From Eubacterium sp. (GTDB lineage Bacteria; Bacillota; Clostridia; Lachnospirales; Lachnospiraceae), in the NCBI GenBank assembly GCA_017634555.1, contig JAGBNF010000027.1, positions 24,758 to 88,757 on the forward strand: 64,000 nt of DNA, read 5' to 3'. Shown here piece by piece: positions 174-34,074 of the stretch. The notes below the pieces were generated by a model, which searched no databases, was not told where the DNA came from, and saw nothing but the letters and a program-made list of their open reading frames with translations. Positions within the stretch are counted from its first letter, which is position 1. Each line of letters begins with the position of its first letter. Made by a program: the position numbers and the translations under genes.

Positions 174-279
174 CACTAATCCTCCTACTGTAAAAATACC
201 CTTTAATTATACTCTCCATAAGAAGTGTTAACAACAAAAAAGGGAAAGGTATTTTGCAGCGGATGTACGTCTTTACAGA

Positions 280-366
280 AATAGTAAAGAGTAGTAAAAT
301 GTTTTAAAAGTAGTAAAGAACAGTAAAGCATTTTAAAAGTAGTAAAGAACAGTAAAACATTTTGAA
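280..366. repeat. three 29-bp tandem repeats before an ATPase gene
   Basis: Units at 280-308, 309-337 and 338-366 share the pattern AGTAGTAAAGAACAGTAAA followed by a CATTTTAAA-like end. Units two and three differ at two positions and unit one is more diverged. The array stops immediately before the ribosome binding site of the downstream ATPase gene. The inner AGTAAA half-motifs recur about every 13-16 bases, as in iteron-type or cooperative operator sites. No replication protein is present, so an operator for the ATPase gene is the simpler reading. Confidence 0.8.
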
Positions 367-377
367 TGGAGGACGCC

Positions 378-1433
378 ATGAAATCAAATAAAAATCCTTA
401 TACATTGATGTTTGGAAAATTACCGAAACAAGCTATTCCAAGACTTGGCGATAAAATGAAGATAGTCCAGCAGTTTACTGATACAGAATATTCCGAGCAG
501 CTATATATCATCACCGGTGTAAGAGGCTCCGGAAAAACTGTATTTATGACAGATGTTTCGAAAGAGATTAGCCAAGAGAAAAACTGGATAGTTATAGAGT
601 TAAATCCGGAAGCAAATCTTATGGAAGATCTGGCTTCAAAACTATCAAGCGAGAATGAGTTGGCAGAGCTTTTCAGAAAATCAAAAATAAACCTTTCATT
701 CTTCGGATTCGGTCTTGAAATCAACGGCACTGCACCTATTACAAACATCGAAACAGCTATCACAAAAATGCTTGAGACTCTAAAGAAACACAACAAGCGA
801 TTGTTAGTTACAATCGATGAAGTTACGGGCAATAAAAATATGCGAGAGTTCGCCAGTGCATTTCAAATTCTTATCAGAAAAGAGCTTCCAATATTCCTTT
901 TAATGACCGGTTTGTTTGAGAACGTTGAAGAATTACAGAATAAAAAAAATATGACATTTCTTCTCAGAGCGCCAAAAATCATTCTTGCCCCGCTTAATAT
1001 CAGCAGAATGGCTGATAGCTATGAGAAAAGCTTGGGTATTGAAAGAGAACGCGCTCTTGAGATGGCACGAATCACCAAAGGATACTCCTTTGCATTCCAA
1101 GTTCTGGGATATTTTTGCTGGGAAGACGATGCCGATAACAATTCTGCATTAAAAATGTTCAAGCAATATCTTGAAGAGAATTCATATGAGAAAATCTGGT
1201 CTGAATTATCACCTAAGGATAAGGAAATCGCGATCGGAATTGCCAGATCATCATCAAAAAAAGTTTCAGATATACGAGAGAATCTCGGAATCACTAATAA
1301 CCAGTTCAACCCATATAAAAACAGACTTATAAAGAAAGGTCTTATTGGCGACGATTTCGGCATAGCTGAGTTTACACTTCCATTGTTTCAGGATTTTATT
1401 CTTGAGAAAGTCGGATATCAAATCCGGATATAG
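378..1433 (+). CDS. P-loop ATPase (archaeal-ATPase/AAA-like) with C-terminal helical DNA-binding-like end
   Basis: A 351-residue P-loop NTPase of unknown cellular role. The Walker A motif GVRGSGKT lies near residue 45 and a Walker B-like LLVTIDEV near residue 145. The last 80 residues (SPKDKEIAIGIARSS, then SDIRENLGITNNQF) look like a winged helix, as in MarR-like ends of archaeal-type ATPases. I use the ATG at 378 because GGAGG at 368-372 sits inside any longer reading. Its 3' end overlaps the convergent small gene at 1396-1548 by 38 bases. Three tandem repeats directly upstream suggest autoregulation. It stands alone rather than in an operon. Confidence 0.7.
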   Translation: MKSNKNPYTLMFGKLPKQAIPRLGDKMKIVQQFTDTEYSEQLYIITGVRGSGKTVFMTDVSKEISQEKNWIVIELNPEANLMEDLASKLSSENELAELFRKSKINLSFFGFGLEINGTAPITNIETAITKMLETLKKHNKRLLVTIDEVTGNKNMREFASAFQILIRKELPIFLLMTGLFENVEELQNKKNMTFLLRAPKIILAPLNISRMADSYEKSLGIERERALEMARITKGYSFAFQVLGYFCWEDDADNNSALKMFKQYLEENSYEKIWSELSPKDKEIAIGIARSSSKKVSDIRENLGITNNQFNPYKNRLIKKGLIGDDFGIAEFTLPLFQDFILEKVGYQIRI

Positions 1434-2048: not shown

Positions 2049-2500
2049 TTTTTCCTCCTTTGAAGTTTATTGAGTTTGTCATAAAAATCATTTCTGTAGC
2101 TTCGGTTCATTATGAGCTGCTCTCCATTTTTCAGGTAGATGATCACTCTCATATTTAAATCGCCCTGAAGCTTCTGTATCTTATAAATGTTTACGACTGA
2201 AGATTTACTGATCCTGACAAATCCGATATTTTCAAACTCTTCTATGAAGTCTCTGAGTGCTTCCTTTATCTCAACGCAGGAATCCTTTGTGTATGCGAAG
2301 GTCTTCCTGTCCACAGTTTCAATATAGAAAATATCGGTAAGTGCGATGGTTACCTTTCCCTGCTCTGTGGATCCCTCTATATATCTCAGAGTATCTCTGA
2401 GTCTGTCCAGCACTGCATTTGTTTCCTCATCTATCTTGTCGTAGTGAAGTTCCAGATAATTTTCTTCTATATTCTCTTCTCTTGTTTTAATAAGCTTCAT
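2045..2500 (-). CDS. LytTR-domain transcriptional regulator
   Basis: A 151-residue stand-alone LytTR DNA-binding protein. The domain covers about residues 50-148, with the family signatures IFYIETVDRKTFAYT, GFVRISKSSVVNIYKI and a final NRSYRNDF. There is no receiver domain, so activity is probably controlled by the co-encoded DUF3021 membrane protein. It sits second in an operon-like arrangement after a CAAX-like membrane protein, but 98 bases separate it from that gene, and that gap carries a conserved element and a possible promoter. The likely target is the direct repeat at 3402-3431 in front of the first gene. Confidence 0.9.
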   Translation of the reverse strand: MKLIKTREENIEENYLELHYDKIDEETNAVLDRLRDTLRYIEGSTEQGKVTIALTDIFYIETVDRKTFAYTKDSCVEIKEALRDFIEEFENIGFVRISKSSVVNIYKIQKLQGDLNMRVIIYLKNGEQLIMNRSYRNDFYDKLNKLQRRKK

Positions 2501-2548
2501 AACATTTCCCAGAATAATAATGACATATAGTCAGTAAGTCAAAATGTT

Positions 2549-2592
2549 TTCTCTCAAGTGAGATCGCATTTTGACTTTTGACACTTTTGTCA
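2549..2592 (-). promoter_or_regulatory. 44-nt element shared with the LexA-like gene leader (copy 1)
   Basis: Read on the minus strand this segment holds AAGTGTCAAAAGTCAAA followed by CGATCTCACTTG and GAGAA. It matches the sequence at 17569-17612 at 39 of 44 positions. Both copies lie between a TATAAT or TATATT box and the start codon of a regulator gene, in the same orientation. In this copy 10-base arms AGTCAAAATG and CATTTTGACT flank the core as an inverted repeat. It could be an operator or a conserved 5' leader. Confidence 0.7.
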
Positions 2593-2597
2593 TTATA

Positions 2598-3308
2598 TTA
2601 CAGGATAAACATTATGCAAAGGAGCAAATATGAAAGCTTCACATTTCTGTTTGTAAGCACGTAAGCTGCTCCGAATACAAATCCACCTGCTGCACCGTAA
2701 AGTCCTGCTCCGAGAGAACCCTTTGATACCCAGTGTGCAAGGCCCCATGTAACACCTACGAGGATTCCGCCGAAAGGAATCTTTGAGTTATTGAACCATT
2801 TCTCAAATGCCATCTGTCCGAAGATGATTATAAGAAGTACAAGGCTTACTTCGAATAAATAATAAATGTACTGAAATGGGAAAAGAAGAGGTCCGCGGCT
2901 CTTAAACTCAGCTGCAACCTTGCTTCCGTTCCAGTCGATCCAAGTGGATACAAGGCAGATAACAACGCCGATTGCGATACATATCCACTGCCATACCTTG
3001 ATGTCCTTTGTGATAAACTTCTTGCTCTTTATATCTTCAAAAAGATCTACACCCATGCTCTTCTTGCAGTCCTTCATTACGAGAAATGCACCGATGCCCC
3101 ATACTGTACAGGTGATGATCCAGTGTAATATCGACTGCCATGCTGTAAACTTGTTCATTTCAACGCCATATAATTTCGGCTCTATCACATTTCCGATCAG
3201 AAGTTCCAGTCCCACAACTCCGAATGCCTCGAGAGCATATAACAGGAAACTGAGTCCTTCCTTGAATCTGTTTGACTTTGTTGTTTTTGCTTCCATTACC
3301 ATATCCAT
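2598..3308 (-). CDS. CAAX-protease-like (CPBP) integral membrane protein, degenerate
   Basis: A 236-residue membrane protein with about six to seven transmembrane helices and a conserved late segment, GVTWGLAHWVSKGSL, resembling the His-containing helix of CPBP/CAAX proteases. The EExxR signature expected for an active protease is not seen; the nearest is AFEKWFN. It may therefore be a non-catalytic family member. It is the first gene of the CAAX-like/LytTR/DUF3021 cluster and has AAGGAG eight bases before the ATG. A LytTR-type direct repeat lies about 95 bases upstream. The paralogue at 44557-45270 has the same position in its operon. Confidence 0.65.
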   Translation of the reverse strand: MDMVMEAKTTKSNRFKEGLSFLLYALEAFGVVGLELLIGNVIEPKLYGVEMNKFTAWQSILHWIITCTVWGIGAFLVMKDCKKSMGVDLFEDIKSKKFITKDIKVWQWICIAIGVVICLVSTWIDWNGSKVAAEFKSRGPLLFPFQYIYYLFEVSLVLLIIIFGQMAFEKWFNNSKIPFGGILVGVTWGLAHWVSKGSLGAGLYGAAGGFVFGAAYVLTNRNVKLSYLLLCIMFIL

Positions 3309-6088: not shown

Positions 6089-8923
6089 CTACCCTTTCAG
6101 GTATTTCTTCAGGTATTTGCCTGTATATGAAGCCTTACATTTCGCAACCTCCTCAGGCGTACCCTGGGTTACGACGGTACCGCCGCCGTTTCCGCCTTCA
6201 GGTCCCATGTCGATAATGTAATCAGCCTGCTTGATGACGTCCATGTTATGTTCGATAACGATGACTGTGTTTCCTCCATCCGCAAATCTCTGCAGGATCT
6301 GGAGCAGTTTCTTTACGTCATCAAAATGCAGTCCCGTTGTCGGCTCGTCCAGGATGTAGATAGTATTTCCCGTGCTCCTCTTGGAAAGCTCGGTGGCAAG
6401 CTTGATACGCTGTGCCTCACCTCCGGAAAGAGTCGTGGAAGGCTGTCCCAGCTTGATGTAGCCAAGTCCCACGTCACGGAGTGTCTCTATCTTTCTCCTT
6501 ATGGACGGAACGCTCTCGAAGAAATCACAGGCCTCTTCGACCGTCATATCGAGTACCTCGAAAATGTTCTTGCCCTTATATCTTACATCCAGTGTTTCAC
6601 GGTTATATCTCTTACCACCGCACACTTCACACGGAACATAAATGTCCGGAAGGAAATGCATTTCAATCTTTATTATACCATCACCCTTGCAGGCTTCGCA
6701 TCGTCCGCCCGCAACATTGAAGGAAAATCTTCCCTTCGTGTAACCCATGGTCTTTGCATCCTTGGTCTCGGCAAAGAGCGTTCTGATCGGATCGAATACT
6801 CCCGTATAGGTTGCCGGATTCGATCTCGGCGTACGGCCTATCGGTGACTGGTCGATATCGATGACCTTATCCAGATCACGATAATTCTCTATATCATCAT
6901 GCTTGCCCGGCTTGATACGTGCACGGTTCAGGTCTCTGAGAAGTCTCTTCTTCAGAATCTCGTTGATGAGCGAGCTCTTGCCCGAACCCGATACGCCGGT
7001 TACAACTGTGAAGACTCCGCGTGGAATCTCAACATCTATATTCTTCAGATTATTCTCTCTTGCGCCCTTGATCTTGATCCAGCCCGTCGGTGTTCTTCTC
7101 TCCTCCGGAACAGGAATGATGAGCTTGTGTGCAAGATACTGACCGGTGATTGAGCGCTCATTTTTCATAAGCTCCTTCGCGGTTCCCTGAGCAACAACCT
7201 CGCCGCCCTGACGTCCCGCTCCCGGTCCGATGTCGATAATCTCATCCGCCGCAAGCATTGTATCCTCGTCATGCTCAACGACGATGAGTGTATTTCCTAG
7301 ACTCTGCAGACGCTTCAGTGAAGCGATCAGCTTGTCGTTATCTCTCTGATGAAGTCCGATGGAAGGCTCATCTAAAATGTAGGTCACACCCACAAGTCCC
7401 GAACCGATCTGGGTTGCAAGTCTTATACGCTGTGCCTCTCCGCCCGAAAGTGATGCTGTGGCACGGCTGAGTGTCAGATAGTTAAGTCCCACATCCACCA
7501 TAAAGCTGAGTCGTGCACGGATTTCCTTCAGGATATCACGGCCGATCATCTGCTGTCTTTCCGTCAGCTCAAGTCCGCTCACGAAATCGCACATTTCATC
7601 TATAGGCATTTCAGTCACATCGAAAATGTTCTTGTCACCGACAGTTACCGCCAGTGATGAAGGCTTAAGCCTCTTGCCTCCGCAGGCCTCACACGGAGTG
7701 AAGGTCATGTAGGATTCATACTCACTCTTCATATCCTCGGAGCCCGAATATTTATAACGTTCCGCAACATTATTGATCAGGCCTTCGAAAGGATGACGGA
7801 ACACATTTCTTCTGGAACGGGTACTCTGATAATGTATTGTTATGCTCTTTCCTCCGGTTCCGTTGATGATAACATCCTTCGCCTTATCCGAAAGGTCTTT
7901 GAACGGTGTGTCCAGGGAGAAGCCGTATTCATCGGCAAGTGCCTGAAGCACCGCATGACCGAAGCTCTTTGAGTCACCGCTGTTCATCCAGCCCATTACC
8001 GCGATGGCACCGTCATTAAGTGAGCGGTTCTTATCCGGGATCATCAGATCCACGTCCAGCTCACGCTTATAGCCGATACCCATACATACAGGGCACGCAC
8101 CGAACGGGTTATTGAAGGAAAAGCTTCTTGGCTCGATCTCATCTATCGAAATGTCGCAGTCCGAACATGAGAAGCTGTCGGAGTAAGTCTTTGTTTCTCC
8201 GTCGATCACCTCAACCTTGACCGTACCCTCCGCCTGATGGAGCGCAGTCTCAAGGGACTCGGCAAGTCGGGATTCGATTCCTTCCTTGATCACAAGTCTG
8301 TCTACAACGATATCTATGTTATGCTTTATGTTCTTATCCAGTGTTATCTCTTCGTCGAGAGTGTACATGGCACCGTCTACGATAACTCTTACGAAGCCGC
8401 TCTTCTTTGCTCTTTCAAGGAGCTTCTCATGACGTCCCTTCTTGCCCTTTACTACAGGTGCAAGAATCTGGAACTTTGTTCTCTCGGGAAGCTCCAGTAC
8501 CGAATCAACTATCTGGTCGATGGTCTGTCTCTCGATCGGCTTACCGCAGTTCGGACAATGTGGGATACCTATCCTCGCATAGAGAAGTCTGAGGTAATCA
8601 TATATTTCCGTTACTGTACCGACTGTGGATCTCGGATTTCTGTTGGTCGACTTCTGATCGATGGAAATGGCCGGCGAAAGGCCCTCTATCTTATCCACGT
8701 CAGGCTTATCTGCCTGTCCGAGGAACATTCTAGCATACGAAGAAAGCGACTCGATGTATCGTCTCTGACCCTCCGCATAAATTGTATCGAAGGCAAGGGA
8801 TGACTTGCCCGATCCCGAAAGTCCCGTAAATACCAGGAACTTGTTGCGTGGAAGCTTAAGATTTACATTTTTCAGGTTATGCTCACGTGCTCCCTGAATT
8901 GTTATATATTTCAACTCTGACAT
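6089..8923 (-). CDS. uvrA: Excinuclease ABC subunit A
   Basis: Damage-recognition ATPase of nucleotide excision repair. The 944-residue length is standard. Two ABC ATPase modules are visible: Walker [16 protein letters not shown] near residue 33 and [15 protein letters not shown] near 640, each with its own signature ([12 protein letters not shown] and [12 protein letters not shown]). Zinc-binding CxxC pairs occur at CSDC/CPVC and at [14 protein letters not shown]. It starts 20 bases after the uvrB stop codon, so uvrBA is a transcriptional unit. All key residues are present. Confidence 0.98.
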
Positions 8924-10949: not shown

Positions 10950-13043
10950 CTACACAAGCTTACAAACATATACCGCTGCCGAAAGCTTCGGTAAGGTTAC
11001 ATTTATAACGCTGTTCATTACCGTACAGGTCTGATCATCCTGGATGAATTCCTCCTCTGTTGTGAGGATGACTCTCTTCATGCTTCTATTATTGCGGACG
11101 CCGATCTGACGCACATTTATCTTAACCTCTTTATCCGCATAGTCGTTGTTGAGTATAACCACAACCGCTTCCTCGAAATTAAATCTGCCGTAAGCGATAC
11201 ATTTATATCCTGCATGAAGGAACTTCAGGCTTCCTGTGATGAGTGACTTATACTTCTTATGTATCTGTATCATTTTCTTATGGAACTTGAGCAGCTCCAT
11301 ATCCTCGTTGCCCCAAGGATAGGTTCTTCTCGAGTCAGGGTCTGTCCATCCGCATACGCCGACCTCATCTCCATAATAAATGGTTGGCGCACCCGGCCAT
11401 GTCATCTGGAATACAACCGCCTCACGGAAGATTCCCTTATTGATATTTTCGTTGGCCGCATAAGGTCCCAATGTGTTGATTCGACCTACTCTGTGGTTCG
11501 TTCTCGTGAGGAATCTCGAATGGTCATGATTCGAGAGTTCGTTCATGGAAACATAGAGTGAGTTGTAAAGCATGCAGGCCATGTAGCTCTTCATGGAGCC
11601 CTGGAATACGTCCGCATTTCCGAAGAAATCTCCGCAGAACTCGTCGCTGTGCTTTTCAACACCGGTCAGGAACCAGGTGATAGGCTCCATAAATGCACCG
11701 TAGTTCATTATGGTATCCCACTCATCGCCCTGAAGCCATGATCTCGGATTTCCGTAATGCTCGGCAAGTATTATGGCATCCGGGTTTGCGGACTTGACTG
11801 CCTTTCTGAAATCTCTCCAGAATCTGTGATTATACTCCTCCGAGTAACCCAGATCTGCAGCAACGTCAAGTCTCCAGCCATCTACGTTGTATGGCGGAGA
11901 AACCCATTTCTTACCTATCTCAAGTATATAGTCATGGAGAAGCTCGGACTCCTCATAATTCAGCTTCGGAAGTGTGTCATGTCCCCACCAGCCGTTATAG
12001 CTGTTGTTGTACGGCCATGCATACTCGTCATTGAATCTGAAGAAGCTTCTGTAAGGGCTGTCGCCTGCGATATAGGCGCCCTTCTCATACTCCTCCGGAT
12101 TCTGCTCATATATCTTTTCCTTATCCAGCCACTTGTTGAAGGAACCGCAATGATTGAAAACTCCATCCAGCACGACTCTGATGCCGCGCTTATGGGCTTC
12201 CTCAACAAGATGAATGAAAAACTGATTTGATGCTTCCAGATTCTCCGGATTTGTAACTCTGTTTATATACTTGCTTGCTCTCGTGTTATCGTTTGTATCC
12301 CACGGGAGCAGCTCGCCTTCATCGTTTACGATCTTTCCGTAATGCGGATCTATGTAATCATAGTCCTGAATATCGTACTTATGATTGGATGGTGAAACAA
12401 AGATCGGGTTGAAATATATAACATCAACGCCGAGACTCTTCAGGTAATCCAGCTTATCCAGAACACCCTGCAGGTCACCACCGTAGAAGTTGCCTACATC
12501 CATGCTGTCAGGCAGCTTGTTCCAGTCATCTATCTTTCTTACATGCTGACCGAGGTAGCTGTACTCATCGGTCTCAACATCGTTGGTCTTATCACCGTTG
12601 CAGAAACGATCCACATAGATCTGATAGAATACCGCACCCTTTGCCCAGTCCGGAGTCTTGAAGCCCGGAACGATGACAAATTCGAAATCCATGTTCGGTT
12701 CCTTGCAGCAGCCGGCTCTGTTATAGCATACGACAAGCCTTCCGCAATGTACCTCGAAGTGATAGCTGATCCTGTTGGTAGCCTTCTTTACCTCAACCGA
12801 ATAATAATCGAATATCTTGTCACATTCGGTATGACTCATCAGAGTCTTCTCATTGTCAGACACGAAAAATACTGCATCGATATTATTTCGTGCAGCACGG
12901 AACTTTATAGTCACATCATCGCCTATAGCCGGTTCCGACGGCGTAACGAACTGCGGAGTTACATCACTGAAGAGTGCCCCGAAGTCCATTATCGTTGTTG
13001 AATTATATATTTTTGTCAGTAAATTCAGAGAATTCCCTTCCAT
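10950..13043 (-). CDS. GH13 alpha-glucan hydrolase (neopullulanase/cyclomaltodextrinase-like), cytoplasmic
   Basis: A 697-residue enzyme of the GH13_20 type. A beta-sandwich N-terminal domain (about 20-125, CBM34-like) is followed by the catalytic barrel starting WAKGAVFYQIYVDRF. The four GH13 regions are visible as LDGVFNHCG, VDGWRLDVA (nucleophile Asp), IILAEHYG (acid/base Glu) and ELSNHDHSR (third Asp). There is no signal peptide, so it acts on imported maltodextrins or intracellular glucan. GGAGG lies eight bases before the ATG. Its close coupling to uvrBA (ten bases) is unusual and may only reflect shared transcription. Confidence 0.9.
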   Translation of the reverse strand: MEGNSLNLLTKIYNSTTIMDFGALFSDVTPQFVTPSEPAIGDDVTIKFRAARNNIDAVFFVSDNEKTLMSHTECDKIFDYYSVEVKKATNRISYHFEVHCGRLVVCYNRAGCCKEPNMDFEFVIVPGFKTPDWAKGAVFYQIYVDRFCNGDKTNDVETDEYSYLGQHVRKIDDWNKLPDSMDVGNFYGGDLQGVLDKLDYLKSLGVDVIYFNPIFVSPSNHKYDIQDYDYIDPHYGKIVNDEGELLPWDTNDNTRASKYINRVTNPENLEASNQFFIHLVEEAHKRGIRVVLDGVFNHCGSFNKWLDKEKIYEQNPEEYEKGAYIAGDSPYRSFFRFNDEYAWPYNNSYNGWWGHDTLPKLNYEESELLHDYILEIGKKWVSPPYNVDGWRLDVAADLGYSEEYNHRFWRDFRKAVKSANPDAIILAEHYGNPRSWLQGDEWDTIMNYGAFMEPITWFLTGVEKHSDEFCGDFFGNADVFQGSMKSYMACMLYNSLYVSMNELSNHDHSRFLTRTNHRVGRINTLGPYAANENINKGIFREAVVFQMTWPGAPTIYYGDEVGVCGWTDPDSRRTYPWGNEDMELLKFHKKMIQIHKKYKSLITGSLKFLHAGYKCIAYGRFNFEEAVVVILNNDYADKEVKINVRQIGVRNNRSMKRVILTTEEEFIQDDQTCTVMNSVINVTLPKLSAAVYVCKLV

Positions 13044-13147
13044 CTACTGTTCCTCCAAACCGATACAAAGTATCGCTGATTGTACGTTATTTGCTGATTG
13101 CGTATCACTGATTGATTGTTCGTCATTCACCAATCATTCATTGTTTA

Positions 13148-13900
13148 TCAGTCGTTCGTCACATCGCCGTTGCCGTGAATGTCGATCTTCTCGCCCAGTA
13201 ATTCTGCTTTAGGCTTAAATATACATTTTATCCAATCCTTATCTCTGGCAAGGATTTCTCTGAAGCTTCTGTATTTAGAACCAACATAAAAGTCAGCGGG
13301 CCCGCATCCGTAGGCATCTATTCCAAGTGATTTAGCTATATATACTGCTCTGTAAAGATGATATTCCTGAGAAATGATCAGCATCCTCTTACATCCGAAA
13401 ATCTCAGCCGCTCTGTACATACTGTCATATGTTGAAAAGCCTGCATGATCCATAAAAATATCAGAAGATGGAACTCCGCTATCCATCAGCCACTGCTTCA
13501 TACAGTTCACTTCATCATATCCCTTCGTTCCGTGATCTCCCGTAACGAGAATCTTGGTAGTCTCACCCAGAGTATCCTTTCTGATCTTATATATGTCGCT
13601 TGCTCTCTTAAGCCTGTCTCTCAGCATATATGACGGAGTTCCGTCATCGTTTACTCCGCAGCCCAGAACCATGATGCAATCTATGTTTTCTATCTGTCCC
13701 GGTTCAGCTCCTGTAAAGATTCTGTCTGCAACAGCAAGCTTTACATATGCATTTATTCCGAATACGGCTATGATACATACCAGAAATACCGCACCCAATA
13801 TCAGCAGTTCTTTTCGGTATTTAATTATCAGTTTTTTTAACGTTTCTCTAATATCTTTTCTTATATCTTTTTTTATATTTTTTTCAGTCTTTTCTTTCAT
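13148..13900 (-). CDS. SanA/YdcF-like DUF218 membrane-anchored protein
   Basis: A 250-residue protein with a charged N-terminus, a single transmembrane helix (about residues 33-53) and an extracytoplasmic or membrane-facing DUF218 domain. That domain is recognised by IDCIMVLGCGVNDDGTPS, TTKILVTGDHG and MLIISQEYHLYRAVYIA. Members such as SanA, ElyC and YdcF affect envelope polymers or vancomycin permeability, but the chemistry is not established. The start codon lies about 77 bases from the terminator of the next upstream gene. A 104-base spacer rich in TGATTG-like hexamers separates it from the glucan hydrolase. Confidence 0.85.
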   Translation of the reverse strand: MKEKTEKNIKKDIRKDIRETLKKLIIKYRKELLILGAVFLVCIIAVFGINAYVKLAVADRIFTGAEPGQIENIDCIMVLGCGVNDDGTPSYMLRDRLKRASDIYKIRKDTLGETTKILVTGDHGTKGYDEVNCMKQWLMDSGVPSSDIFMDHAGFSTYDSMYRAAEIFGCKRMLIISQEYHLYRAVYIAKSLGIDAYGCGPADFYVGSKYRSFREILARDKDWIKCIFKPKAELLGEKIDIHGNGDVTND

Positions 13901-13976
13901 GCAGTATATTATAAAACAATGCTAAAAATAACGCAATTATTCGCACTGCCCAACCTTTTTCGTGCAATTTAAATAA

Positions 13977-13998
13977 GGGGCCGATATTATTCGGCCCC
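13977..13998 (-). terminator. terminator of the TROVE/TerD-like gene
   Basis: On the minus strand GGGGCCGA and TCGGCCCC form an eight-base GC-rich stem with a short AT loop, 11 bases after the stop codon at 14009 and followed by TTATTT. Confidence 0.8.
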
Positions 13999-14008
13999 AG
14001 GGGTAGAA

Positions 14009-16048
14009 TTACTTGTTCATAAGCGCGATCATCTTATCAACATCATATTCCCTGATAACCTCCACACCTTCAGCACATTCTACAGTCTTATTTGTAACGA
14101 CGATCTCAGCCTCGGATATATCCGAAACCACTTCTGATGCCATCATTTCAAAGAATGTATATACGTTTATGATGTCGGTCACATGGAAATAGTCCGTAAT
14201 AAAGCTCATATCTGTTGTGCCTGCCACTGTCATAGAGCCGTTACGTGCCATGTTGAGCCAGATGAACTCATTTGTCTGAAGATCAACTCCGAAGAGATAT
14301 GCAAATGTACTGTCGCAGTTTATCATGAATGAAGACTTAACTGTCTTAGGCTCGTATATCTCACCTGAGTCAATAACATCTCTCGTCATGTAACCTGCCT
14401 TACAGAAGCACTTTTCAAAATTTATACCTGAATATACATTATCGCAGAATATGAGGTAATGCATATCCGGATACATCTTTCTGAATTCTTCAAAATTGAT
14501 ATCGAAATACTCCGAACCACCGTTGTATCCGCTGGTCTCATCGCCTGAGTAAACTATAGCATCGGAATTTTTATCAGCCATAGTTCTCCACGAAAACTCT
14601 CTTCTGGTTCCGTTATCGCCTATTCCGAAAACCGAAAGATCGATATCATTTACCTTCTCCCAGTAGGTGAATGCACGTATCTTCTTAGTCTCCGGCATCT
14701 TCAGCTTCGAACCTCTTGTGAGTACACCGAAGCCGCCCTGAGAAGTAGTTTCCTGGATTGGAAGTGCATAGTTCTTCATGTCCGGATCGATGTATACCTT
14801 ACCGAGACGGCCCTTCAGAATCTTCTGCAGATTCTCAGAAATATACTTCGACAGCATAGCCACCTGACCCTCTGAGATTACAGACTTTCTTCTCTGCTGC
14901 TCCTCCGGAGTCTCTGTATGAATCTTCAGCATATTATGCTTTGTAAATACAAAGTTTCTCGCAGCGCTGCCCTTTCTCTGTGAGTACTGGATCAGCAGCT
15001 GGATCAATACGATAACATTCTTTGTATCGATGCAGTCGCAAAGATGCTGCATATCCTCGAAGGACTCACATCTGCTTATGATGTAGTTCATATTTCTGAG
15101 GACTGCCGCTGAGCCCTTGCCTGTCTTCAGAGCTTCGATTGCAGCCTTAATATTCTTCTCTGTCATGTGTCTCTCGAACTCAGAGTACACTGACTTATTC
15201 TCACTGCCTCGCATAGCATCAACAAACTGCTGTGCCTCTTCAGACACTGCCTTGTAATGGATATGGTGAAGCAGACCGTTCCAGAGCTTCTTCTTCTCGA
15301 AACAGTTTATGATATCAACCCTGCCGTTAGCAAAGATACGGTTTATCACACCTGTAATAAACTTTCTTGTCTGATTCTTCAGGTTGAGCTTCTTTATATT
15401 ATTGTTATGATATTCTATGTAATTGATCTCATCAACGAGACGTATTACATCAGACATACTGAGCTGGTCAGCCAGTTCTAAATTCTTGGTATCAACCATA
15501 AGACGGACTATGGTATTCTTCGATGCAATCTCCATACCGTTCAGTCCGAAATCTATAACATACTCCTTTACCAGCCTATACTGTATATCACTCAGAGGTC
15601 TCGTACCTGCAAGCAGGTTTGCGACGATCTCGCCGATAAGGACTATTGCTTCCTCTTCCGTAACAACCGAGAATTCCTTGATCTCGGCATTTTCCTTAAA
15701 TGCAGCTCTTTCAAACTGCTCCTCAAACAGCGAGTGTCCTGCTTCAGAGAAATGTCCGAATCCGTAGGTCACTGCATAGTGAACCAGCTGATCGAACAGA
15801 AGCTGATCCGGAAGGAGCTGTCTTACTGATTCCGGAAACCCTCTGTAGAAAGGCTCCGGTACTCTTTCACCCAGCTGACTTGACGCAAATCTGATCATCT
15901 CCGTACGTACAAGCTTCTCGCCCTTGATTATTCTTATGTTAAAAAGGTTCGCAAGTGCAAACAGAACCTCAAGCTGATGCTCAGGCTGTTCACCCTCAGA
16001 AACCAGGTAATGCTTATCAAAAAGATGCATTTCGTAAATTGGCTTCAT
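14009..16048 (-). CDS. Ro60/TROVE-like protein with TerD-like C-terminal domain (tentative)
   Basis: A 679-residue soluble protein without a signal peptide. Residues 1-450 are almost entirely helical. The stretch GSAAVLRNMNYIISRCES (about 312-329), then two helices and KYISENLQKILKGRLGK before a beta domain, parallels the end of TROVE modules (ALLRNLGKMT, then helices, then GKRFLLAVDVS in Ro60). Residues 457-650 resemble TerD: NDIDLSVFGIGDNG, AIVYSGDETSGYNGGSEYF and MHYLIFCDNVYSGINF, acidic loops of the Ca-binding type. No vWA MIDAS motif is seen. A Y-RNA-like leader lies immediately upstream, which is why I favour an RNA-binding Ro-like role. The TerD match is moderately strong; the TROVE match is inference. 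Confidence 0.55.
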   Translation of the reverse strand: MKPIYEMHLFDKHYLVSEGEQPEHQLEVLFALANLFNIRIIKGEKLVRTEMIRFASSQLGERVPEPFYRGFPESVRQLLPDQLLFDQLVHYAVTYGFGHFSEAGHSLFEEQFERAAFKENAEIKEFSVVTEEEAIVLIGEIVANLLAGTRPLSDIQYRLVKEYVIDFGLNGMEIASKNTIVRLMVDTKNLELADQLSMSDVIRLVDEINYIEYHNNNIKKLNLKNQTRKFITGVINRIFANGRVDIINCFEKKKLWNGLLHHIHYKAVSEEAQQFVDAMRGSENKSVYSEFERHMTEKNIKAAIEALKTGKGSAAVLRNMNYIISRCESFEDMQHLCDCIDTKNVIVLIQLLIQYSQRKGSAARNFVFTKHNMLKIHTETPEEQQRRKSVISEGQVAMLSKYISENLQKILKGRLGKVYIDPDMKNYALPIQETTSQGGFGVLTRGSKLKMPETKKIRAFTYWEKVNDIDLSVFGIGDNGTRREFSWRTMADKNSDAIVYSGDETSGYNGGSEYFDINFEEFRKMYPDMHYLIFCDNVYSGINFEKCFCKAGYMTRDVIDSGEIYEPKTVKSSFMINCDSTFAYLFGVDLQTNEFIWLNMARNGSMTVAGTTDMSFITDYFHVTDIINVYTFFEMMASEVVSDISEAEIVVTNKTVECAEGVEVIREYDVDKMIALMNK

Positions 16049-16074
16049 ATTTTTTTACCTCTATATAATTTGAT

Positions 16075-16132
16075 GATATCATCGGATTAAATTTGATTAA
16101 CTGTTAAGGAGAAGTAAATCCGACTAGCTATC
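16075..16132 (-). ncRNA. short Y-RNA-like stem-loop (copy B) in the leader of the TROVE/TerD-like gene
   Basis: This repeats the outer helix of the neighbouring Y-RNA-like element: GATA, TAGT and CGGATTTACTTCTC on the 5' side, and AATTTAATCCG, ATGA and TATC on the 3' side. The tip is a small TTAA-CAG-TTAA hairpin instead of a tRNA-like domain. Paired positions next to CGGATT/AATCCG have changed together relative to copy A (A-T to T-A), which supports a folded RNA. It ends 13 bases before the AGAGG of the downstream gene, so it could also affect translation. Confidence 0.6.
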
Positions 16133-16139
16133 GTTTTCT

Positions 16140-16256
16140 CGGCGATATCAACGGATTAAAATTTGGTGCTCTACCAATTGAGCTACGACTGCCGAAGCAG
16201 TCGACGGGACTCGAACCCGCAACATCCAACCCCTAGAGAAGTAAATCCGTTTAGCT
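16140..16256 (-). ncRNA. YrlA-type Y RNA with circularly permuted tRNA-like domain (copy A)
   Basis: On the minus strand the order is: outer helix strand CGGATT (16249-16244), anticodon-like TTGG, T-arm GCGGG-TTCGAGT-CCCGT (16220-16204), acceptor-like CGACTGC-TTCG-GCAGTCG (16203-16186), TA, D-arm GCTC-AATTGGTA-GAGC (16183-16168), CCAA, and outer strand AATCCG (16157-16152). The arms of a tRNA are all there, but permuted, with the acceptor end closed by a tetraloop and the anticodon side opening into a long helix. Bacterial YrlA RNAs have this plan. A bulged GC next to an A.G mismatch is shared with copy B. It cannot be a normal tRNA because there is no free acceptor end and no anticodon loop. 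Confidence 0.8.
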
Positions 16257-16260
16257 GCCG

Positions 16261-16266
16261 ATTATA
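16261..16266 (-). promoter_or_regulatory. -10 box of the Y-RNA/TROVE-TerD transcript
   Basis: A perfect TATAAT ends at 16261 on the minus strand, placing the expected transcription start at about 16252-16255, at the 5' edge of the Y-RNA outer helix. The -35 region (AATATA at a 17-base spacing) is weak. Confidence 0.55.
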
Positions 16267-16305
16267 TACGATGTAATTATTTGTATATTTTTGTTTTTTG
16301 CTGAC

Positions 16306-16560
16306 TTAGGCAGTCAGGCCGGCCGCATTCGTCTGACCGACTACGATTATATCATCCATAGTCACCCCAAATGCAGCAGCGAGAACTACCAGATTGTCGA
16401 TGGTCGGAAGTGCCGCTCCGCGCTGCCACTTGTAAATAGCCTGCGGTGTGGTAAATCCGAAAATGTCTTGCAGATCTGCAACTGTGAGACCCGCTCTCTT
16501 GCGTAGAATAATGATATTTCTACCAGTACCTACAGTGTCAATCATCGGTATCATTTCCAT
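16306..16560 (-). CDS. small XRE/HTH regulator (module 1)
   Basis: An 84-residue helix-turn-helix protein. The core reads LTVADLQDIFGFTTPQAIYKW, then PTIDNLVVLAAAFGVTMDDIIVV, typical of a compact Cro/C1-type family widespread in Lachnospiraceae. The gene has AGGAGG five bases before ATG. It is a close paralogue of the 76-residue protein at 27117-27347, and both lie downstream of a small peptide ORF and a terminator. The shared operator TATACC-GGTATA upstream of both modules is its probable target. Confidence 0.85.
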   Translation of the reverse strand: MEMIPMIDTVGTGRNIIILRKRAGLTVADLQDIFGFTTPQAIYKWQRGAALPTIDNLVVLAAAFGVTMDDIIVVGQTNAAGLTA

Positions 16561-21243: not shown

Positions 21244-22398
21244 CTAGTTCTGTCCCTCTGCTTTGTAGTTATAAATAGGCTTTATTATCTTATCTATATG
21301 AACCGTTTCTCCGATAACAGCTGCGATATCTTCTATTCCTCTATATGCGAAAGGACTCTCATCAAGTGTATCCTTGTTAATGCATATGGAGTAGATTCCA
21401 TCCATAGCTTTCTTGAAGTCCGATACAGTATGATGCTCAGCAACCTCCGAGCGTCTGTAAATTCTTCCCGCTCCGTGTGGTGCAGAACAGTTCCAGTCCA
21501 CATTTCCAAGGCCTGTTCCCAGGATTATTCCGTCTCGCATGTTGATCGGGATGATAACTTTCTCGCCTTCCTTGGCACTTATCGCACCCTTTCTGAGTAT
21601 CGGCTTTGCATCATTGCCCGGCTTCACATCCGAGAAATCCACGTAGTTATGAATGCAGGTAAAGCTTTCCTCTATCTTCCACTTCATTCCTCCTACTATG
21701 GAATCGATGATCGCATCTCTGTTGAGACGCGCAAACTCCTGAATTATCTCGATATCATGAAGGTAATCCTCCATCAGCTGTCCGGTGAGGCAGGTCATTT
21801 CATATGAAGCATATCCCTGCTTCTTCATCTGCATTTCCTTCTGGCCCGTTCTCAGATAGTAATCTGCAACCTCCATTCCCAGATGTCGGCTTCCCGAATG
21901 AACGACCAGGTACACATTTCCTTCCTCATCCTTATCAACCTCTATGAAATGGTTTCCTCCGCCAAGGGTTCCGACGCTTCGACTTGCCTTTCTAGCATTG
22001 ATGTTCCTTGCACATCTCAACTCCGAAAGGTCGATCCTGTCTGCATACTTATGCTCCTTCTCACGGATTCTCGGGCCAACCGGTACCGCTTCTCTTATCA
22101 CAGAATCAAGTTGCTGGAAATGTATCCCCTTCGTCTTAACCTTGGCCATCGTCATTCCACAGCCGATATCGACACCCACCAGACTCGGAAGAATTGAATC
22201 TCCTACTGTCATTGTAAGCCCGATAGTTCCCACCTTACCCGGATGAACATCCGGCATAACCTTTACCGAACTGCCTTCAGCACTCGGATGATTGCAGATC
22301 ATCTGAAGCTGTTTTCTGGCATAATCTTCAAGAGCATATAGCTCATTTTCTACCGTATACACAGTAGCATTTGTATATTTTCCGTATATTGTTAACAT
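21244..22398 (-). CDS. rtcB: RNA-splicing/repair ligase RtcB
   Basis: Joins RNA 2',3'-cyclic phosphate or 3'-phosphate ends to 5'-OH ends using GTP and Mn. At 384 residues it is a compact RtcB. Metal and active-site motifs are present: MPDVHPGKVG, GVDIGCGM (Cys), GGGNHFIE, HSGSRHLG, HNYVD, RKGAISA and SAPHGAGR, whose His takes GMP. It follows the Cys-rich small gene by 15 bases and shares its promoter at 22859-22887. RtcB often works with Ro/Y-RNA systems, and a Y-RNA-like locus lies 5 kb away on the same strand. Confidence 0.95.
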   Translation of the reverse strand: MLTIYGKYTNATVYTVENELYALEDYARKQLQMICNHPSAEGSSVKVMPDVHPGKVGTIGLTMTVGDSILPSLVGVDIGCGMTMAKVKTKGIHFQQLDSVIREAVPVGPRIREKEHKYADRIDLSELRCARNINARKASRSVGTLGGGNHFIEVDKDEEGNVYLVVHSGSRHLGMEVADYYLRTGQKEMQMKKQGYASYEMTCLTGQLMEDYLHDIEIIQEFARLNRDAIIDSIVGGMKWKIEESFTCIHNYVDFSDVKPGNDAKPILRKGAISAKEGEKVIIPINMRDGIILGTGLGNVDWNCSAPHGAGRIYRRSEVAEHHTVSDFKKAMDGIYSICINKDTLDESPFAYRGIEDIAAVIGETVHIDKIIKPIYNYKAEGQN

Positions 22399-33895: not shown

Positions 33896-33920
33896 TTCAT
33901 AAATAACACTTCTATAAATC

Positions 33921-34008
33921 AGCATCCCTACGTTGGCATTATCCAAATCAGGTTAACAGGTCGAAGGTTACACCTTCCTCTCAGCCGGTCTACCGGCTCC
34001 CTCCTGTG
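33921..34008 (-). promoter_or_regulatory. TPP riboswitch (THI element)
   Basis: On the minus strand the conserved CTGAGAGGAAGG and ACCTGATTTGGATAATGCCA, then CGTAGGGA, mark the TPP aptamer, with P1 arms AGGAGGGA-type and the final GGGATGCTG. TPP binding should favour the downstream terminator and switch off thiSFGHEC. Confidence 0.97.
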
Positions 34009-34074
34009 CAATTGTCAGTGTGTATTCTATTCCAATTATGCTTTGACGTCAACTACATTTTTGATAGTTTTTGC

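Follow-up and report, generated by a model that had tools for sequence, protein, structure and literature searches.

A predicted Y RNA array adjoining the gene for a putatively TerD-like protein in Eubacterium and its relatives

Knowledge of Ro60 and the Y RNAs goes back decades, and their function in bacteria is still being studied. A 64,000-nt stretch of a contig from Eubacterium sp. (referred to here as the window) raises the question of whether bacterial Y RNAs have partners of a second kind. In the window, a structured RNA lies directly upstream of the gene for a 679-aa protein, and an earlier annotation made from the letters alone (the sequence-only reading) considered the two to be a candidate variant Ro system. 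As described in PMC8394870 and PMC7790460, YrlA RNAs have a permuted head (T-arm, acceptor, D-arm), a basal stem and a gene beside a protein gene, and RYPER consists of YrlA, Rsr/Ro60 and PNPase. The features of the locus are listed in Table 1.

The sequence-only reading had described a D-arm, a T-arm and a 7-bp acceptor in permuted order on the minus strand, closed by TTCG, with a long imperfect helix at the anticodon position, and had recognized in this the plan of the bacterial YrlA RNAs. All of this is borne out. The Rfam alignment and the pairing in relatives confirm the arms; at the anticodon position, the TTGG/CCAA stem is followed by a basal helix with an internal loop. The same reading had proposed a search of the locus with the YrlA model, which matched the core only of copy 1 (43.3 bits, E=1.3e-8), under the gathering score of 69 bits, and the folding of homologous leaders, in which 98.0% of the helix cells were paired in 28 relatives versus 80.0% in re-dealt strands, a value reached by 0/500 shuffles; double changes were seen in 20 of the 28 pairs. 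Our own model, R1, scores copy 1 at 118.9 bits (16144-16256), copy 1 itself being among the 28 rows of the model. Folding of the single sequence is unexceptional (z -1.42, equalled by 18/200 shuffles, and z -1.05), and the structure of copy 1 is supported by the pairing in its relatives. The YrlA features present in copy 1 are the permuted D, T and acceptor arms and a basal stem formed from the 5' and 3' ends of the RNA; judged on its sequence, copy 1 is a YrlA-type Y RNA. It has no free 3' CCA end, because the acceptor is a closed hairpin.

Table 1. Coordinates within the window of the RNA copies, their parts and the associated genes
Feature	Position	Strand	Evidence
Y RNA copy 1	16140..16260	(-)	Rfam YrlA core match; own RNA model R1
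Copy 1, order of parts: outer stem CGGC/GCCG, internal loop AGCTA/GATATC, 8-bp inner stem, TACTTC, permuted tRNA mimic		(-)	
Copy 1 inner stem, 8 bp, AACGGATT/AATCCGTT	16244-16251/16150-16157	(-)	
Stem TTGG/CCAA, 4 bp, at anticodon-stem position	16226-16229/16163-16166	(-)	
T-arm (GCGGG TTCGAGT CCCGT)	16204..16220	(-)	helix 99.3% paired, n=28 sequences
Acceptor stem as closed hairpin (CGACTGC TTCG GCAGTCG)	16186..16203	(-)	99.0% paired; double changes at 6/7 pairs
Acceptor, 7 bp, TTCG loop	16197-16203/16186-16192	(-)	
D-arm (GCTC AATTGGTA GAGC)	16168..16183	(-)	100% paired, nearly invariant (n=28)
Y RNA copy 2 (same basal hairpin without tRNA mimic)	16068..16137	(-)	model R2
Proposed Y RNA partner, 679 aa	14009..16048	(-)	NF041916 match aa 275-606, E 2.9e-25
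TerD-like part, aa about 443-547	14408..14722	(-)	hhalign; D470, D503, E513 invariant in 22 diverse homologs
RtcB-like RNA ligase gene, ~5 kb upstream, same strand	21244..22398	(-)	PF01139, E 2.5e-56

Copy 1 is followed by a plain copy that the sequence-only reading had not listed (copy 2; model R2, 58.1 bits, E 1.8e-11, copy 2 being one of the 36 rows of R2); between the end of its GATATC and the start codon of the 679-aa gene there are 26 nt. Arrays of up to six units are found in relatives, and a class of copies with a T-arm only accounts for 17/160. The motif GCTA-N8-TAYTTC occurs 120 times in the 62,068 nt upstream of the gene in related loci, versus seven times in 885,980 nt elsewhere on the same strand of these loci and once on the opposite strand. 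In 78 copies found through the motif alone, pairing amounts to 95.7% in the inner stem (69.9% in re-dealt strands) and to 94 to 79% at the outer stem positions (75 to 41%). In the plain-copy alignment, the count of double-change pairs was matched by 15/500 shuffles, and the remaining four measures by 0/500. Rfam searches for the plain copies gave tRNA only at gathering in 10 loci, and only tRNA, YrlA, tmRNA and c-di-GMP-I at E up to 0.1 in eight loci; the drum RNA motif, another candidate, did not appear, though the presence of that family in the library is unconfirmed.

A TATAAT had also been claimed to set the start of the RNA at the base of the helix. The TATAAT is there, but a start at this place is only tentative: the box ends only 4 nt before AGCTA, and a promoter scan found none above threshold at this site. 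A -10-like box lies 5-16 nt ahead of AGCTA in 31/73 first copies versus 5/85 later copies (under slightly different counting rules), and among the 54 first copies with such a box, the window included, its distance is most often 12-13 nt (19/54). This enrichment fits a start at the first copies and is compatible both with a leader acting only in cis and with an RNP.

Among 200 genomes of the same family, the basal hairpin (R2) was found in six of the seven that encode the protein and in 0/193 of those that do not (Fisher 8.5e-11; 8.0e-8 after removal of the genomes that contributed to the model). Hairpin and protein are on the same contig, and they adjoin each other in five of the six hairpin genomes; in G092, the RNA is ~2.8 kb off the gene, which is fragmented. 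R1 at E<=0.001 matches 142/200 genomes, and most of these matches are presumably neighbouring tRNA genes; R1 genome calls were made at a gap between 74.6 and 52.3 bits that was picked after the search, whereas R2 required no such gap. Both genome searches used stricter filters, with the loss of weak matches. Matches to R1 or R2 were obtained for 77/88 sources, 25 of them without any row in either model; L030, L043, L052, L078 and L085, each with >500 nt of upstream sequence, had no RNA match. A YrlA-like RNA lies near five of 19 distant homologs, four of these five in phages, and no convincing one was found near the other 14. A phylum-wide search (A2) of 299 genomes found three, including the genome of the window. 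The named isolates carrying the system are Eubacterium ruminantium FB3002 (L033) and Eubacterium uniforme ATCC 35992 (L068). As predicted from these sequences, a Y RNA gene is located beside the protein gene in tight linkage. That the pair recurs in relatives, and also in some phages, points to a second type of partner for the Y RNAs of bacteria.

The protein matches the NCBIfam model NF041916 (MXAN_6230/SCO0854 family RING protein) at 88.6 bits, far under the curated cut-off of 600, and Pfam revealed no RING domain in it, no vWA at E up to 1 and no family at all. Its N-terminal part had been described as helical and TROVE-like; sequence and profile comparisons do not support a TROVE fold. Pfam TROVE (PF05731) was found neither in the protein nor elsewhere in its own genome, and it is absent among the families listed (25/35) for 48 relatives of the protein. 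The profile comparison with TROVE that had been proposed (hhalign, 18 TROVE proteins) gave a non-significant probability of 27.5%, and the N-domain scored 21.1 versus 19.2 and 19.9 for reversed controls. The TerD assignment made by the sequence-only reading is supported for the C-terminal part with a wide-family profile (A4; probability 90, P 1.4e-6; 83 on trimmed columns), the alignment spanning DxDLS...GD...E..DI, but not with a narrow-family profile (12% probability, P 0.0025). Unlike TerD proteins (PF02342), the window protein has a long N-terminal part in front of this region and no Pfam match; Pfam TerD is found in 2/48 members (best E 0.0027) and, in a second set, in 2/22 (best E 0.045).

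The locus resembles YrlA (RF02553) in the permuted head on a basal stem and in the adjoining protein gene, and differs from the YrlA/Rsr/PNPase system in its internal loop, its tandem arrays, its mimic-free copies and a partner without TROVE or vWA match. R1 also finds Y RNAs beside 5/19 TROVE loci and matches 4/6 TROVE genomes of the same phylum (E<=2.2e-9). At the TROVE loci L107, L108 and L110 (72.2, 70.0 and 62.5 bits), the RNA is likewise upstream of the gene and TTACTTC is in the same place, right behind the inner stem, in all three (by eye), which, with the R1 matches, provides indirect support for a Ro-like role of the TerD-type protein. By contrast, the 5' side of their internal loop reads CGCCA, CGTTA or CGCCTGA with a longer 3' side (by eye), an anticodon-arm-like hairpin precedes the T-arm and the partner is a TROVE protein. 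With R2, no RNA on the TROVE side is matched even at E up to 5, so the handles on the two sides differ in detail. G265 and G304 hold both a TROVE and a TerD-type protein, and their sole R1 match is near the TROVE gene, not near the TerD-type gene. The RtcB-like ligase gene of the window has counterparts near 5/77 related loci, all five within the 40 that have ~6 kb on both sides, and this linkage is weak. In a homolog on a Variovorax plasmid, rtcR is three small genes away.

We consider it probable that the locus encodes a Ro/Y-RNA-like RNP with a partner not recognisably TROVE. The array would yield two Y RNAs, only one of which bears a head that imitates tRNA, and the protein would bind the handle common to both (AGCTA/RATATC internal loop, inner stem and TTACTTC). 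The head should not be chargeable, since a loop closes off its acceptor end; it may dock tRNA-binding factors, for example an exonuclease, as in Rsr-YrlA-PNPase, or compete with damaged tRNA, and the RNP may have a role in RNA quality control or repair. Through the copy that adjoins the ribosome site, the protein probably limits its own synthesis, and the TerD-like domain would replace the vWA domain of Ro60.

The copies could alternatively act only in cis, as tandem hairpins through which the protein or free tRNA controls translation of the gene, with no independent RNP RNA. Such a role is possible because most copies lie inside the gene leader, and it would agree with the orientation of the R2 matches in related loci, all on the gene strand (113/113), with an end of the last copy 18-30 nt ahead of the start codon in 33/75 loci and with the leader of L012, which contains one plain hairpin. 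Nevertheless, a tRNA head kept by covariation is not obviously necessary for control in cis, and in L080, L084, L114 and L168 the RNA follows the gene on its downstream side, while in L061 it is ~2.5 kb upstream. We regard this explanation as unlikely. A role as decoys, in which the tRNA-like heads would draw away nucleases that cut tRNA or phage factors that bind it, with the protein keeping the decoys ready, is conceivable but doubtful. The heads mimic parts of tRNA, down to the T-arm-only copies, the pair is carried in phages, and PMC7790460 raises YrlA as a competitive inhibitor of an anticodon nuclease by which YrlA itself is not cleaved. An anticodon-arm-like hairpin of at least 4 bp is found in 10/110 plain loops (mean of 2.5 and maximum of 9 in 200 shuffles), a hint that is weak because arms of at least 5 bp are near expectation (2/110 versus 1.0) and hairpins with 7-nt loops of all kinds are also raised (36 versus 23.6). 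Moreover, most full heads have no anticodon arm, the cut site of these nucleases (L038 and L050 are apparent exceptions, by eye), and PADLOC gave no match for the two family members tested.

Two further explanations carry little weight. An ordinary YrlA served by a canonical Rsr encoded elsewhere, with a neighbour gene that is merely linked, would require an Rsr gene missed in the genome of the window, which may have happened given a completeness of 71.85%; this is very improbable, as TROVE is found in 0/200 genomes of the same family (164 of them >=90% complete and <=5% contaminated), across which RNA and neighbour gene co-occur. It is scarcely credible that the locus is a circularly permuted tRNA gene giving a functional tRNA once processed: the 3' half does precede the 5' half and the Rfam tRNA model matches weakly (18 bits), but the window copy has no anticodon arm and is not a complete tRNA, ARAGORN finds no tRNA at the site and covariation shows that the long basal stem is maintained.

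Beyond the RNP reading of this locus, a bolder reading, about as likely as not, is that a second Ro-like class, with TerD in place of vWA and either unrelated to TROVE or undetectably diverged from it, took over Y RNAs in Clostridia and in phages of hosts from several phyla, its arrays being made up of RNAs that each present a different piece of tRNA on a common handle. The partner of this set of Y RNAs is an unstudied protein. If TROVE and TerD-type partners were compared on related RNAs, this would reveal what is required of a Y RNA partner, and because the simplified natural set combines one handle with a mimic, with a T-arm only or with a plain hairpin, it would allow the handle to be told apart from the tRNA-like head.

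The TerD-type gene is directly preceded by two copies of one RNA unit, which share a basal hairpin (the handle); copy 1 also carries a tRNA-like head. The base of copy 1 pairs CGGC with GCCG as its outer stem, followed by the internal loop AGCTA/GATATC, an 8-bp inner stem and single-stranded TACTTC. The head presents, in order, a T-arm, an acceptor stem closed by TTCG and a D-arm; a 4-bp stem takes the place of the anticodon stem. The sequence-only reading took this for a permuted tRNA mimic on the YrlA plan, and the Rfam YrlA model does match the head (E 1.3e-8, under the gathering score); ARAGORN detects no tRNA at copy 1. Single-sequence folding is no proof of the structure; it is on the evidence of relatives that the unit is structured beyond chance.

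Features of the locus and of compared loci (L-numbers)
Sequence	Feature	Position	Strand	Remarks
Window	679-aa TerD-type gene	14009-16048	-	
Window	Y RNA copy 2	16068-16137	-	Basal hairpin of copy 1; 22 nt past TACTTC; no head
Window	Y RNA copy 1	16140-16260	-	Basal hairpin and tRNA-like head
Window	Small helix-turn-helix gene	16306-16560	-	Upstream of array; similar stretch upstream in L010 (by eye)
Window	TPP riboswitch	33908-34013	-	
L107	TROVE-side Y RNA	2476-2589		
L108	TROVE-side Y RNA	2487-2602		
L110	TROVE-side Y RNA	186-300		
L118	Permuted tmRNA family match	272-493		With L119, close upstream of Ruegeria and Rhodobacter phage Y RNAs
L119	Permuted tmRNA family match	275-577		As for L118
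L126 (Variovorax sp. SRS16 plasmid)	Homolog to rtcR (RNA-repair regulator)	11314-16520		Three small genes between; homolog annotated RING finger family 4 protein

A protein search of genome contigs contributed the best 80 of 167 as named loci, and viral contigs contributed nine. Omitting two duplicate phage loci, three loci starting inside the gene and one with less than 60 nt upstream, 84 sources were counted, the window included; 72 of them carry one or more units within 800 nt, 153 in total. Basal pairing was assessed in the 78 units with [AG]ATATC ahead of the next unit or gene, found by motif rather than by pairing; the other 75, lacking an exact [AG]ATATC there, were omitted. The 8 nt after AGCTA and the 8 nt before [AG]ATATC were paired at 95.7% of positions, versus 69.9% when strands were dealt among copies (200 trials, none above 74.5%), and the inner stems included 46 different 8-mers. 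Covariation, too, is found in homologous leaders: in 28 mimic RNAs (units with the head), picked by T-arm and D-arm patterns with 3' ends set by at least 7/8 inner pairs, 98.0% of 769 cells were paired, double changes occurred in 20 of 28 pairs, and none of 500 shuffles matched any of five measures. Because selection used the T-arm, D-arm and inner pairs, the acceptor stem (99.0% paired, double changes in 6/7 pairs) and the anticodon-position stem (90.7%, 4/4 pairs) are fairer tests. In 36 plain, mimic-free copies, 89.1% of cells were paired versus 58.1% when shuffled; these copies having been selected for at least 7/8 inner pairs, the outer stem alone (77.3% paired) tests them fairly. In the 62,068 nt upstream of the gene there are 120 instances of the motif GCTA-N8-TAYTTC; the same loci have seven more in 885,980 nt of gene strand outside this region, and one on the opposite strand.

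The units are closely linked to the protein. Two RNA models were used, R1 (from the 28 mimics, all of the TerD-type family) and R2 (from 36 plain-copy rows), and the 200 same-family genomes were taken as one set across the protein, TROVE, R1 and R2 searches, the listed handles agreeing. The protein is present in seven genomes, as fragments in G092 and as a distant homolog in G194. R2 (E<=1e-4) matches six genomes once each, all protein-positive (Fisher 8.5e-11); in five, about 18 to 215 nt separate the match from the gene beside it, and in G092 the match shares a contig with the gene fragments, about 2.8 kb from them. Without the two genomes that supplied R2 rows (G000, the window's own, and G175, with the contig of L087), R2 matches 4/5 protein-positive genomes versus 0/193 (8.0e-8). 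The one missed by R2, G194, has a homolog 25-30% identical and an R1 match of 74.6 bits immediately downstream of it. R1 scores at least 74.6 bits in six genomes, all protein-positive, the next score being 52.3; without its row suppliers (G000, together with G160 and G002, whose contigs agree in length with L022 and L020), the figures are 3/4 versus 0/193 (3.2e-6). In G073, the remaining protein-positive genome, the leader contains a plain hairpin. R1 or R2 matches 77 of 88 sources (window included), 25 of which supplied no row to either model, and all 113 R2 matches in related loci are on the gene strand. The 11 unmatched sources include L094, which holds a unit by motif, five loci (L042, L046, L048, L058, L066) whose sequence opens within the gene or reaches no more than 212 nt upstream of it, and five (L030, L043, L052, L078, L085) in which R1, R2 and the motif find no unit. 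Pfam TROVE, the domain of canonical Ro60/Rsr, was found in none of the 200 genomes, the window's own included, and in 6/299 genomes of the phylum.

Residues 275-606 of the protein match the MXAN_6230/SCO0854 family; no paper with either name was found in the open-access collection searched. The C-terminal part is predicted to be TerD-like by its wide-family profile (probability 90, P 1.4e-6; 83 on trimmed columns), whereas the narrow family gives only 12; the earlier TerD assignment is supported by the former profile and not by the latter. D470, D503 and E513 are invariant across 22 diverse homologs. In viral contigs L102, L103 and L105, the protein is split over two open frames near residue 343-363 (near 6936-7092), close to where the N-terminal and TerD-like parts meet, suggesting a domain border. 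The N-terminal part had been described as TROVE-like, but profile comparison gives a probability of 27.5 (wide family) or 14.7 (trimmed columns), and the N-domain score of 21.1, equalled by 1/60 column shuffles and 0/60 reversed block shuffles, compares with 19.2 and 19.9 for two plain reversals; TROVE homology is not established from these profiles. Short motifs look alike by eye in the two families (xDVLRL; LRNLN and ARRLD), which provides a lead rather than a test.

Distant homologs occur in 12 phage and 20 plasmid records. The surroundings of 19 (nine phage records, seven plasmid records and three genomes) were inspected, and a YrlA-like RNA lies close to five (R1 E 3.6e-6 to 1.8e-14; Rfam YrlA E 0.21 to 5.4e-6): Ruegeria phage RpAliso (two copies), Rhodobacter phage RcXuper, Synechococcus phage S-CRM01, Rhodococcus phage Weasels2 and also G194, already counted among the seven protein-positive genomes. 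None was found close to the other 14, whose records have R1 matches elsewhere (e.g. 46.6 bits in a Vibrio plasmid), in a range presumed to reflect neighbouring tRNA genes. As a yardstick, 5/19 canonical TROVE loci, with mostly shorter flanks, give R1 matches at E<=1e-7. The gene rtcR adjoins TROVE in one Rhizobium and one Methylosinus plasmid.

The RNA beside the TROVE gene of L107 scores 72.2 bits with R1 versus 27.9 with Rfam YrlA, and in both genomes with the two proteins (G265, G304) the sole R1 match is near TROVE. By eye, the window family shares TTACTTC, right past the inner stem, with TROVE-side RNAs in L107, L108 and L110, loci of the window's own phylum (apparently Bacillota), and the Rhodococcus phage RNA also has it; in L160 and L161, two alphaproteobacterial plasmids, the TROVE-side RNAs have CTACATC (by eye). 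The internal loops of TROVE-side RNAs are unlike those of the window family, and R2 finds none of these RNAs. In L107, L108 and L110, an anticodon-arm-like hairpin (loop CTGTTAA or TTGTTAA) stands just ahead of the T-arm (by eye), so these RNAs resemble nearly whole permuted tRNAs.

With a slightly wider motif, simple patterns that miss some members sorted 160 copies from 75 loci into 111 plain, 31 with permuted T-arm and D-arm, 17 with a T-arm only and one of another order; L097 was overlooked, yet R1 marks it as a mimic (84.1 bits). Of the 31 arrays with a mimic, 29 begin with it (26/28 without single-copy arrays). A -10-like box lies within 60 nt ahead of 54/73 first copies; it stands 5-16 nt before AGCTA in 31/73, versus 5/85 later copies, where the search span is only 25 nt. 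The last copy ends 18-30 nt ahead of the start codon in 33/75 loci. Anticodon-arm-like hairpins of at least 4 bp occur in 10/110 plain loops versus 2.5 expected (at least 5 bp, 2 versus 1.0), for example L017 -141, L029 -141 and L102 -89. By eye, the head of the copy with another order, which lies in L094 and 296 nt ahead of the matched start, runs acceptor hairpin, D-arm, anticodon-like arm, T-arm.

Among the matches listed, no title or abstract start ties a Y RNA to a TerD-type protein, and an earlier mention is possible; one paper mentions TROVE and TerD, separately, in jumbo phages (PMC7824862). Two others describe a known Rsr-YrlA complex in which PNPase is tethered via the tRNA-like head and, for some bacteria, an RNA-repair operon of rsr, Y RNA and rtcBA (PMC8394870, PMC7790460). 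By analogy, the TerD-type protein would bind the basal handle, and the head would recruit, or compete for, tRNA-handling factors. Autoregulation of the gene is plausible because of the last copy's position ahead of the start codon, and the array may display separate parts of a tRNA.
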